A stretch of 12,126 bases of DNA from Oscillospiraceae bacterium (GTDB lineage Bacteria > Bacillota > Clostridia > Oscillospirales > Oscillospiraceae). Below the pieces are notes generated by a model. It was not told the origin of the DNA and did no database searches. It saw nothing but the letters and a program-made list of their open reading frames with translations. The stretch covers positions 1 to 12,126 of the forward strand of contig JAFTGG010000152.1 of assembly GCA_017458025.1 (NCBI GenBank). Reading direction: 5' to 3'. A program made the position numbers and the translations under genes. The number at the start of each line of letters is the position of its first letter. Within the stretch, counting starts at the first letter, position 1. Shown here one piece after another: positions 1,793 to 3,954 of the stretch.

Positions 1793-2017
1793 CTACTTCT
1801 CGTTCGTTGCCGAGCCCAACGCTTCGTTCAAAAGCGCATAGCGTTTTTCGATGTCGCATAGATGCTCCCAGACGAAGTCCATTGCGTCGGCGTACCTCCT
1901 ATGGTCGAGCTCGGCGCTTCGCGCCGCCTCGTTCATGGCGTACAGCAGATTCAACGCTCTATGGAGCCTGACGTTCTCATCGTCCAGCTTTGACCAAATA
2001 TCCCTCGGCGTATCCAT
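1793..2017 (-). CDS. Orphan 74-residue helical protein behind a structured RNA leader
   Basis: I do not recognise this protein. It is 74 residues, begins MDTPRDIWSKLDDENVRLHR and appears all-helical: one amphipathic helix at about residues 6-36 and a second at about 41-68 (RRYADAMDFVWEHLCDIEKR), with no signal peptide or membrane segment. It contains a single cysteine. The start is well supported: AGGAGG on the minus strand (plus positions 2025-2030) lies seven bases before the ATG. Immediately before the ribosome binding site is an intrinsic terminator, and before that a folded RNA domain and a promoter. Expression therefore probably depends on read-through or antitermination. It is the only likely gene between divIC and hpf and is opposite in strand to both. 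It may be a regulated small protein, an RNA-controlled toxin or part of a small mobile element. Confidence 0.6.
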   Translation of the reverse strand: MDTPRDIWSKLDDENVRLHRALNLLYAMNEAARSAELDHRRYADAMDFVWEHLCDIEKRYALLNEALGSATNEK

Positions 2018-2024
2018 GCGACTG

Positions 2025-2030
2025 CCTCCT
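2025..2030 (-). promoter_or_regulatory. Ribosome binding site AGGAGG of the orphan ORF
   Basis: A full AGGAGG reads on the minus strand, seven bases before the ATG at 2017 and only three bases after the U-run of the upstream terminator. It fixes the start codon and shows that the ORF is likely translated despite its small size. Confidence 0.75.
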
Positions 2031-2033
2031 AAC

Positions 2034-2062
2034 AAAAAATGGCGTGGCACGAAGCCACGCCA
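2034..2062 (-). terminator. Intrinsic terminator directly before the orphan ORF's ribosome binding site
   Basis: Read on the minus strand: UGGCGUGGC (2062-2054), loop UUCGU, GCCACGCCA (2048-2040), then six U (2039-2034). This is a 9-bp GC-rich stem with a U6 tract, a strong Rho-independent terminator. It lies inside the leader of the 74-residue ORF, the position expected of an attenuator. Alternatively it marks the 3' end of a stand-alone RNA. Confidence 0.8.
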
Positions 2063-2073
2063 CGAAAAACGCG

Positions 2074-2201
2074 GCCCCGTGAGTCGCCAAACCAAATCAA
2101 TATGATACCCAGCGGAAACATGCACATTGAACACGGGGCGCATTTTTACCAAAGAAAAATGCACGTTCCGTTACGAGTATCCGATATTAATTTGGTTTGG
2201 C
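2074..2201 (-). ncRNA. Structured leader RNA, candidate riboswitch-like or antitoxin-like element
   Basis: Folding by eye on the minus strand: P1 pairs 2177-2201 with 2086-2108 (12 bp GCCAAACCAAAU/AUUUGGUUUGGC, a U-G pair, 5 bp, a two-base bulge, then GAUAC/GUAUC). P2 pairs 2161-2170 with 2113-2123 around one bulged base. P3 is a 6-8 bp hairpin (2140-2147 with 2155-2162). The segment 2132-2139 is complementary over 8 bases to 2074-2081, outside P1, so a pseudoknot is possible. Wobble pairs in P1 and P2 are U-G or G-U on the minus strand but C-A mismatches on the plus strand, which sets the direction. The predicted transcription start (about 2201) coincides with the first base of P1. It matches no riboswitch class I know. 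Confidence 0.55.
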
Positions 2202-2207
2202 ATATAA

Positions 2208-2236
2208 ACCGTACCACAAACGGCGAGGTCTGTCAA
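2208..2236 (-). promoter_or_regulatory. Sigma-A-like promoter for the minus-strand leader RNA
   Basis: On the minus strand: TTGACA (2236-2231, perfect -35), 17-base spacer, then TACGGT (2213-2208) preceded by TGG, an extended -10. The -10 hexamer matches the consensus in only three positions. The expected start, about seven bases on, falls at 2201, the first base of the long P1 helix. Confidence 0.5.
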
Positions 2237-2488: not shown

Positions 2489-2516
2489 TTGACATTTTGC
2501 TTAGACATGTTATAAT
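2489..2516 (+). promoter_or_regulatory. Strong extended -10 sigma-A promoter of hpf
   Basis: TTGACA (2489-2494) and TATAAT (2511-2516) are both perfect, with a 16-base spacer ending in TGT, so an extended -10 motif (TGnTATAAT) is present. The expected start is near 2523, giving a leader of about 25 bases to the hpf ATG. It is the best promoter in the window and shows that hpf can be transcribed apart from the upstream RNA. Confidence 0.9.
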
Positions 2517-2547
2517 AGAATCAGCACATCGAAAGGAGCGCAGCGTT

Positions 2548-3093
2548 ATGAAATTCACATTTGCCTGCAAGAAAATCAGCCTCAACGACTCCGTCAAAGC
2601 CTATGCCGAGAAAAAGATCGGCAAGCTGGACAAGTACTTCCGCAGCGAACCGGAGGCCAACGTCACCTTCGCCGTCGAGAAGAAAAACCGCTGCGTAGTC
2701 GAGGTAACGCTCAGAAGCCCGGACGGCACGATGTTCCGCGCGGTGGGAGAAGATCCGGACGGCGATATGCGCGGCGCGATCGACTCCTGCGAGCAGCAGA
2801 TCGACCGCAAGATCCGCAAGAACAAGACGCGGCTTGCGAAGAATCTGCGCGAGGGCTCCATCAAGTCGGAGGTGCCCGAGGAGTTCGACCTCCACGAGGA
2901 GACCGAGTTCAACATCGTGCGCAAGAAGCAGTTCGCGGTCAAGCCCATGAGCCCCGAGGAGGCCATTTTGCAGATGAATCTGCTCGGCCACAACTTCTTC
3001 GTGTTCCGGAACACCGAGAACTACGCGCTCGACATCGTTTACAAACGCAACGACGAGGGCTACGGCCTCATCGAAACGACCGAGGATAAATGA
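2548..3093 (+). CDS. hpf: Ribosome hibernation promoting factor, long form (HPF/RaiA)
   Basis: A 181-residue long-form HPF. The N-terminal S30AE domain (about 1-100) starts MKFTFACKKISLNDSVKAYAEKKIGKLDKYF and carries the conserved VEVTL, FRAV and D..GAID segments. A charged linker follows, and a C-terminal dimerisation domain (about 125-178) ends EEAILQMNLLGHNFFVFRN and YGLIE. Long HPF binds the 30S decoding region and joins two ribosomes through its C-terminal domain to form inactive 100S dimers in stationary phase. AAAGGAG at 2532-2538 lies nine bases before the ATG at 2548. A longer in-frame reading from 2497 would start inside the promoter and is rejected. The transcript converges on gntR with a shared hairpin between them. 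Confidence 0.95.
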   Translation: MKFTFACKKISLNDSVKAYAEKKIGKLDKYFRSEPEANVTFAVEKKNRCVVEVTLRSPDGTMFRAVGEDPDGDMRGAIDSCEQQIDRKIRKNKTRLAKNLREGSIKSEVPEEFDLHEETEFNIVRKKQFAVKPMSPEEAILQMNLLGHNFFVFRNTENYALDIVYKRNDEGYGLIETTEDK

Positions 3094-3174: not shown

Positions 3175-3954
3175 TCATTGGTCGATGACGCGTGTGAACT
3201 CGGTGGCGCCTTTCTGGAAATGCACGTTCAGCTTCATGCGGTCGGCGCGCATATAGCTCGTCGTGTACTCGTAGATACGCCCGTCCTCGCCGGTGGTGCG
3301 GCGCTGGTGGAAGAACGCCGGAATATCGCTGCGGCAGTCGAGCAGCGCCGCCTCGCGGTCGCCGAGCAGCACCGCCTCGTAGGTATCCTCCGCCGAGGCC
3401 GGCACGACGCCCACATGGTAGAGCAGGCTGTAAAAGCTGTGCGTCTGGAGCATTTCGCGCGTCAGGTTGGGATAGATGTACTCCGGATAGTACGACGTTT
3501 CGACGATCAGCGGCTTGTTGTCCACATTGCGCACGCGCGTGAAGCAGTAGACCCTCGCGTCGGCGGGCAGCTCCATGATCTCGCGGATACGCGGCGAAAC
3601 CGGCAGCACGTCGAAGTTCACGAGCGTCGAGGACGGGTTCTTGCCCATCTGCGAGACCTCGGTCGTGAACGAATACTGCACGCTCTTGCGGCGCGTGGTC
3701 GGGTCGGCGACGAAAGTGCCCTTGCCGCGCTTGCGCACGACAAAGCCGTCCTCCTCCAGCGCGCCGATCGCCTGGCGCACGGTGTTGCGGCTGATGCCGT
3801 ACGCCTTGCACAGCTCCGCCTCCGACGGCAGCAACTGTCCCACGTCCGCCTCGCCGGAGGTAATGACGCGCTTGATAATGCCGATGAGCTGCGCGTACAG
3901 CGGCGTCTCGCTGTCATTGTGCAGCTTTTGGGTCAAAATAGGACTCGTTTCCAT
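3175..3954 (-). CDS. GntR-family (HutC subfamily) transcriptional regulator
   Basis: A 259-residue regulator. The N-terminal winged helix-turn-helix (about residues 18-85) reads PLYAQLIGIIKRVITSG, LLPSEAELCKAYGISRNTVR and DGFVVRKRGKGTFV, the GntR signature. The C-terminal half (about 100-250) is a UTRA effector-binding domain, with conserved RVYCFTRVRNVDNKPLIVE and YYPEYIYPNL segments. HutC-type regulators usually respond to small metabolites such as amino acids or sugar phosphates. The ligand here is not predictable. The ribosome binding site before the ATG is weak (GGGAAG). The gene has its own promoter (3992-4021) and lies downstream of a 2-hydroxyacid dehydrogenase on the same strand, separated by a terminator. 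The dehydrogenase is a candidate target, by inference only. Confidence 0.9.
   Translation of the reverse strand: METSPILTQKLHNDSETPLYAQLIGIIKRVITSGEADVGQLLPSEAELCKAYGISRNTVRQAIGALEEDGFVVRKRGKGTFVADPTTRRKSVQYSFTTEVSQMGKNPSSTLVNFDVLPVSPRIREIMELPADARVYCFTRVRNVDNKPLIVETSYYPEYIYPNLTREMLQTHSFYSLLYHVGVVPASAEDTYEAVLLGDREAALLDCRSDIPAFFHQRRTTGEDGRIYEYTTSYMRADRMKLNVHFQKGATEFTRVIDQ

Follow-up and report, generated by a model that had tools for sequence, protein, structure and literature searches.

A family of promoter-linked structured leader RNAs in Clostridia with rival pairings next to the terminator

The window analysed here is a 12,126-nt stretch of DNA from an Oscillospiraceae bacterium (contig JAFTGG010000152.1 of assembly GCA_017458025.1). 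On its minus strand, a promoter, a structured leader RNA, an intrinsic terminator and a small ORF follow each other closely (Table 1). The original prediction, made from the sequence alone, had proposed such a module, with transcription starting exactly at the first base of a long helix, and with a terminator ending in six U residues, a Shine-Dalgarno sequence and a 74-codon ORF behind it; all of these elements are present, and the register of the promoter is conserved in relatives. In the window, TTGACA, a 17-nt spacer, TACGGT and a further 6 nt lead up to G2201, the first base of the helix P1. This promoter is absent from the output of a strict promoter scan and its support comes from conservation in relatives. 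The ORF listing also offers a longer frame, from a GTG at 2164 to 1793, but we prefer the ATG at 2017 because it has a Shine-Dalgarno sequence and its position is conserved in relatives. For the predicted RNA (2201-2030), the folding energy is -74 kcal/mol and the z-score -6.6, a value matched by 0 of 200 shuffles, whereas the plus strand of the element gives a weaker z-score of -5.2.

Table 1. Minus-strand features of the locus, with the basis of each assignment
Feature	Coordinates	Strand	Basis
-35 hexamer TTGACA	2231..2236	-	sequence; family consensus TTGa, 17-nt spacer in 106/116 distinct copies
-10 hexamer TACGGT, TGTGG just before	2208..2213	-	sequence; ends exactly 6 nt ahead of the first RNA base in 102/116 distinct copies
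Structured leader RNA, predicted 5' end 2201	2030..2201	-	R1 covariance-model match, 117.8 bits
P1 5' strand	2184..2201	-	folding; covariation in homologues
P1 3' strand	2086..2103	-	folding; covariation in homologues
Local hairpin 5' strand GCAUUUUU, alternative partner for 2147-2140	2155..2162	-	sequence and family pairing tests
Switch strand AAAAAUGC-GCCCCGUG, partners: local 2162-2155 or long-range 2081-2065	2132..2147	-	family pairing tests
Pseudoknot 3' strand CACGGGGC-C-GCGUUUUU, 1 nt ahead of terminator stem	2065..2081	-	8 anchored pairs kept, 111-112/112 copies each
Intrinsic terminator and U6 tract	2034..2063 (stem 2063-2039; U6 2039-2034)	-	terminator prediction; family covariation
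Shine-Dalgarno AGGAGG	2025..2030	-	sequence
74-codon ORF, ATG 2017	1793..2017	-	sequence; purifying selection on the small protein

The surroundings of the element contain further features. A ribosome-hibernation-factor-like gene (S30AE) lies on the plus strand at 2489-3093, divergent from the RNA and with a perfect 12/12 match to a sigma-70-type promoter ahead of it. The stretch 2263-2298 recurs in at least five other contigs of the genome (C277, C263, C85, C50 and C214). At 1591-1638 there is a perfect 21-bp hairpin (TTTGAAACCGTTTCTCTTTTG), which looks like a dispersed genome repeat since near-identical hairpins adjoin the RNA copies on C83, C85 and C175. Inverted repeats of about 50 nt surround two other RNA copies (in L010, at 1059-1113 and 1616-1670, and in L011); they also surround a gene in L270 (C263:76-693), which we take to be CsaA-like, and this repeat has 11 matches in the genome.

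The element is one member of an RNA family without an Rfam match. An Rfam 15 scan of the window (E up to 5) returned no family above its gathering score at the element, the only overlapping match listed at E≤5 being SorX, with 18.3 bits against a gathering score of 46.6. Likewise, no family was found above its gathering score at the element in eight relatives (E up to 1), or at the gathering threshold in six relatives, five of them of the long subtype described below. Together with compensatory changes in homologues, this supports the original reading of an RNA-controlled minus-strand module, one that matches no Rfam family. We found no published description of the leader RNA in the literature searched, although an unnamed listing in the supplements of structured-RNA surveys is possible.

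To collect relatives we used a covariance model, R1, whose seed alignment comprises five copies from the window's own genome and three from other genera of the same family, and whose modelled base pairs are those of P1, the local hairpin and the terminator. The score of the window copy is not independent, as it is one of the eight seeds; it nevertheless has P1, the switch strand, the pseudoknot strand and the terminator in this order behind a sigma-A-type promoter, as the family does. Its genome holds at least eight RNA copies, the others lying on C83, C85, C175 and C63 (from a DNA search) and on C182, C205 and C201 (from the covariance model). R1 matches at E≤0.01 occur in 88 of 400 same-family genomes (39 of 106 genera) and, at E≤1e-4, in 90 of 391 same-class genomes (53 of 223 genera); across the phylum only one of 299 genomes matched, namely the window's own. 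At most seven (or nine) candidates were scored per genome in these searches, so that the true number of copies may be higher. Scanning the named GTDB genomes with a pattern gave at least 118 stretches. Among those listed, 80 loci are titled Clostridia or groups that we take to lie within Clostridia, with one titled Bacillota only, and R1 finds 85 matches in these 80, of which 83 are strong and fall in 78 loci. Exact 15-mer matches in 200 family genomes numbered 12, eight being the element (five in the own genome, three in others) and four unrelated sequence.

The comparisons below draw on 118 retained model matches, of which 113 have both pseudoknot anchors by pattern and 112 are distinct; five were dropped for missing anchors (L092, L093 and one each in L126, L176 and L145). 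Excluded earlier were four weak matches from one model search and two from another (L177 and L161). For the promoter and strand tests, 116 distinct copies had the required 45 nt or more of upstream sequence, and for the ORF distances 108 copies had 150 nt or more downstream. Loci L086-L115 come from the covariance model, whose own seeds share the 15-mer. The pattern used to select loci L116-L195 fixes both GGTAAAAACGC and TGCGTTTTTCG, so that the invariance at these two stretches is partly a matter of ascertainment. By length, the copies divide into a short subtype of fewer than 190 nt (72 of 112), to which the window copy belongs, and a long one (40 of 112).

The promoter is conserved along with the RNA. 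The consensus upstream runs TTGa, then TgTG.TAtAAT, followed by GCCAcACAAA at the start of P1, and at least 8 of 12 promoter bases are matched in 104 of 116 copies, whereas shuffled upstream regions reach this in 32 of 116. In alignment A4 (85 sequences), 99.2% of the P1 cells are paired and 10 of 11 pairs have changed on both sides, a strong outcome for the covariation in homologues called for by the original prediction; in the terminator helix, 99.8% of cells are paired and both sides have changed at 8 of 10 pairs. For the whole structure, A4 contains 301 cells changed on both sides, while shuffling gives 61 and sliding 43 at the most. In all 116 distinct copies the more stable fold is that of the sense strand, as expected from the G-U wobbles noted in the original prediction.

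The fold also contains a strand with two potential partners. In the 112 copies selected by anchor, a small hairpin is followed by A5-YGY and a variable stretch; the pseudoknot partner, just ahead of the terminator, consists of a variable stretch and GCGU5. The pseudoknot had been predicted as eight pairs between 2132-2139 and 2074-2081, and the complementarity of GCCCCGUG (2139-2132) and CACGGGGC (2081-2074) is indeed there, but that length was too short: beyond a bulged C2073, AAAAAUGC (2147-2140) pairs with GCGUUUUU (2072-2065), and across copies the duplex has 10-17 pairs with a median of 14. Compensatory changes in the eight anchored pairs do exist, though in only 2 of 112 copies, these pairs being near-invariant. 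The variable core is specific to its own partner (-11.94 versus -9.74 kcal/mol when partners are permuted, 0 of 5000 permutations reaching it), a specificity that is weaker in the long subtype (15 of 5000 permutations) than in the short (0 of 5000). Pairing with the sequence on its 5' side, the same strand can instead form a local hairpin; it does so in 71 of 72 copies of the short subtype and 35 of 40 of the long, again better than with permuted partners (0 of 5000 in each subtype); all these permutation tests leave relatedness among the copies in. Joint change of all three strands, the switch strand and both its local and its pseudoknot partner, is seen in L114 and in the L166 copy at 3551-3714.

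Where they share bases, the local hairpin and the pseudoknot exclude each other. Their median energies are close in the short subtype (-15.1 and -16.6 kcal/mol, respectively) and far apart in the long, where a weak local hairpin of -5.8 kcal/mol faces a pseudoknot duplex of -17.7 kcal/mol. A close balance of two states is therefore supported for the short subtype alone, and a true two-state balance may be restricted to it. The idea of mutually exclusive structures, as in an attenuator, thus survives in spirit, with a change of actors: the conserved rivalry is between these two pairings and does not involve the GCCGCG-UUUUU-CGUGGC hairpin originally invoked. That hairpin is present in the window, yet the family as a whole does not share it, its own pairing exceeding the permuted one in the short subtype (-7.15 versus -6.06 kcal/mol) and equalling it in the long (-3.06 versus -3.04 kcal/mol). 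Nor does the pseudoknot strand pair with the 3' arm of the terminator better than chance (pairing as good arises in 1059 and 4954 of 5000 permutations), and among these pairings we found no conserved antiterminator competing with the terminator, the GCCGCG-UUUUU-CGUGGC hairpin rising above permuted pairing in the short subtype only. Two further ideas were set aside. A U-A-U triple helix of the U5, A5 and U5 strands was dropped on a geometric argument made without calculation, and copy G129, which has no 5' U run, also speaks against it. The second idea, that the 5' arm mimics the 3' strand, was not significant by longest common substring, the observed length being reached in 37 of 500 and 382 of 500 shuffles.

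The RNA is closely tied to what follows it. A Shine-Dalgarno-preceded ORF starts within 70 nt of the start of the U tract in 87 of 108 copies and within 40 nt in 75, versus 11 and one of 77 other terminators in the same loci. An earlier measure, taken from the end of the model match, placed an ORF within 60 nt in 87 of 108 copies and within 30 nt in 74, compared with 15 and five of the 77 other terminators and with 18.5% and 11% of 3955 random positions. The remaining 21 of 108 copies have no called ORF within 60 nt. Since the called ORFs start a median of 18 nt past the model match, most copies leave little or no room for another promoter. As in riboswitches, then, a conserved structured leader with a terminator lies ahead of an ORF. 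A pathway shared by the genes behind it was not found, no Pfam family occurring in more than 3 of the 86 cargo proteins, and PHROG matches among them spread over 118 families with at most four proteins each, many being HTH regulators. The cargo is non-random: among proteins of at least 100 codons, 38 of 50 have a hydrophobic N-terminus and 13 of 50 a lipobox-like site, the corresponding figures for 465 other ORFs of these loci being 99 and 21, with ORFs and hydrophobicity called by simple rules and not by gene annotation. One recurring cargo is a small Cys-rich protein with a CCCDECDY/F-like motif (L138, L151, L191, L118, L176 with two, L125, L147, L159 and L100).

The 74-codon ORF of the window is a coding sequence under purifying selection: its pN/pS is 0.17 and 0.23 against two paralogues in its own genome, and values over all ten compared pairs are 0.08-0.43. 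Its product has no Pfam match above cut-off and is probably helical. In 18 genomes of the genus, the gene occurs seven times, in three genomes, each time directly behind an RNA copy.

Given this organization, we favor the reading that the RNA is a cis-acting structured leader that serves as a switch-like transcription attenuator of the gene just behind it, with a probability of about 0.65 judged from sequence evidence. Promoter, RNA, terminator and gene stand in a fixed order in most copies, and the rival pairings adjoin the terminator. A sigma-A-type promoter would start the RNA at the first base of P1; the transcript would fold as a long hairpin in which the inner strand, A5-YGY with its variable stretch, can pair locally. 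Once the variable stretch and GCGU5 have been transcribed, the inner strand could pair there instead, giving a pseudoknot whose end lies right ahead of the terminator stem. By default, transcription would terminate and leave an RNA of roughly 150-220 nt, and read-through would yield the mRNA of the downstream gene, since in most copies the ORFs lie too close behind the RNA for a second promoter. The state of the switch strand may then alter the frequency of read-through. The pairings themselves are backed by their conservation, by partner specificity and to some extent by compensatory change, while it is their alternation that we infer. Envelope proteins, lipoproteins and small orphan proteins abound in the regulon, which suggests that the signal reflects general cell state. 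Several points weigh against an attenuator: without a conserved antiterminator, the step from fold to termination lacks an explanation; the anchored pseudoknot pairs hardly vary; and there are the 21 copies without a close ORF. Tandem RNA pairs 34 to about 100 nt apart occur in L097, L118, L126 and L166 and at G316:C34, G301:C5, G656:C80 and G580:C14; in the first four loci all eight units have retained promoters of their own, an arrangement less easily reconciled with a single leader for each gene.

Some of these observations lend weight to a stand-alone trans-acting small RNA, in which the terminated RNA, sealed at its 5' end by P1 and at its 3' end by the terminator, would be the functional product and the gene would be expressed by leakage only. 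The promoter locked to the RNA start, the complete tandem units and the copies without a close ORF would all be expected of it, and the near-invariant A5-CGC and GCGU5 could pair between copies. We consider it unlikely, as the tight spacing of ORF starts behind the U tract is almost never seen behind other terminators and the cargo, with its hydrophobic N-termini, is non-random. More doubtful still is an RNA-antitoxin-like pair in which the RNA would bind the product of the gene downstream and keep it silent. The layout of promoter, RNA, terminator and gene recalls C. difficile RCd22-abiF, where, according to PMC12373285, a sigma-A promoter precedes an ncRNA, a terminator and a gene co-transcribed by read-through; RNA and small protein are moreover linked in all seven cases in the window's genus. 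The type III toxin-antitoxin idea raised in the original prediction is nevertheless not supported: there are no direct repeats in 1500-2600 of the window, neither abiF nor any other Rfam family matches, and the same RNA stands ahead of largely unrelated proteins, lipoproteins included. PADLOC matches in the 86 cargo proteins are few (at most three per model) and mostly carry HTH-type or control-protein names, and no ToxN, CptN, TenpN or AbiF appears among the 25 Pfam families listed out of 38 or among all 20 PADLOC families.

Many copies per genome, and inverted repeats that bracket two of four own-genome copies examined, might point to a repeat of mobile or selfish nature, in which transposition has spread a promoter cassette and the RNA fold is secondary. 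This is improbable in view of the strong covariation and the fixed position ahead of genes. Terminal inverted repeats, which a transposable element should have at each copy, are confined to those two of four, with no such pair found around the window copy, and the same repeat bounds the C263 segment, where the model finds no RNA. Three gapped patterns gave no viral-contig matches, and a plasmid search with one RNA copy gave none either. A phage origin was likewise rejected on these patterns and on the exact 15-mer GCGTTTTTCGTGGCG, present in 61 viral contigs of which none carried the element by a simple filter; diverged viral copies could be missed, as the scans used exact patterns. Full RNA copies do occur in two unverified, unannotated human-faecal contigs of a phage collection, named 'Bacteriophage sp.' (L266, 3965-4125, and L267, 2077-2235), where they are followed by a zinc-ribbon-like and by a lipoprotein-like ORF; we do not take these as proof of phage carriage. 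The many exported-protein genes also bring to mind a c-di-GMP-type riboswitch, as cargo and copy number resemble GEMM regulons. This is very improbable: no riboswitch in Rfam matches, and a c-di-GMP sensor is disfavored because 30 of 90 RNA-bearing genomes of the class, some with six or seven RNA copies, lack a GGDEF match at E≤1e-10. Over the class, 291 of 391 genomes have such a match and 100 do not, although incomplete genomes may hide some.

Returning to the attenuator, its broadest form is at present a tentative one: the RNAs could constitute a large undescribed class of gene-control RNAs of gut Clostridia, fused to their promoters, in which a strand exchanged between a local hairpin and a terminator-side pseudoknot senses a signal and sets a regulon of envelope proteins, lipoproteins and orphan small proteins. 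In any event, this is a widespread structured RNA family without an Rfam match in the tested sequences, and the covariance model and covariation make testing direct. Among its targets are many lipoproteins and further exported proteins of gut Clostridia, about whose control little is known. Should the RNA be a sensor, its signal would be a regulatory input not known before; otherwise, it has still to be explained why a promoter-fused pseudoknotted leader precedes so many unrelated genes.

Many unrelated genes behind one leader RNA are a feature shared with GEMM regulons. In its folded 5' leader, pseudoknot, intrinsic terminator, Shine-Dalgarno sequence and nearby ORF, the family resembles the pseudoknotted riboswitch-type attenuators (for example preQ1, SAM-II and c-di-GMP-II); unlike these, it matches none of the models, has its promoter in fixed register and has no conserved antiterminator that we could find. 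With C. difficile RCd22 and the abiF motif (RF03085) it shares the order of promoter, RNA, terminator and gene (PMC12373285). These and the type III toxin-antitoxin systems, however, have repeated short motifs and one toxin family, whereas the leader RNA is one long pseudoknotted fold ahead of largely unrelated genes. Mobile or repeat motifs of the MRSC type (PMC11109978) likewise come in many copies per genome, but in the leader RNA the orientation and the distance to the gene are fixed in most copies, and promoter and terminator are included. The kind of element, a structured cis-regulatory leader, is already known; this family is set apart by its fusion to a promoter, by two pairings that compete for one strand and by a cargo of unrelated and often exported proteins.
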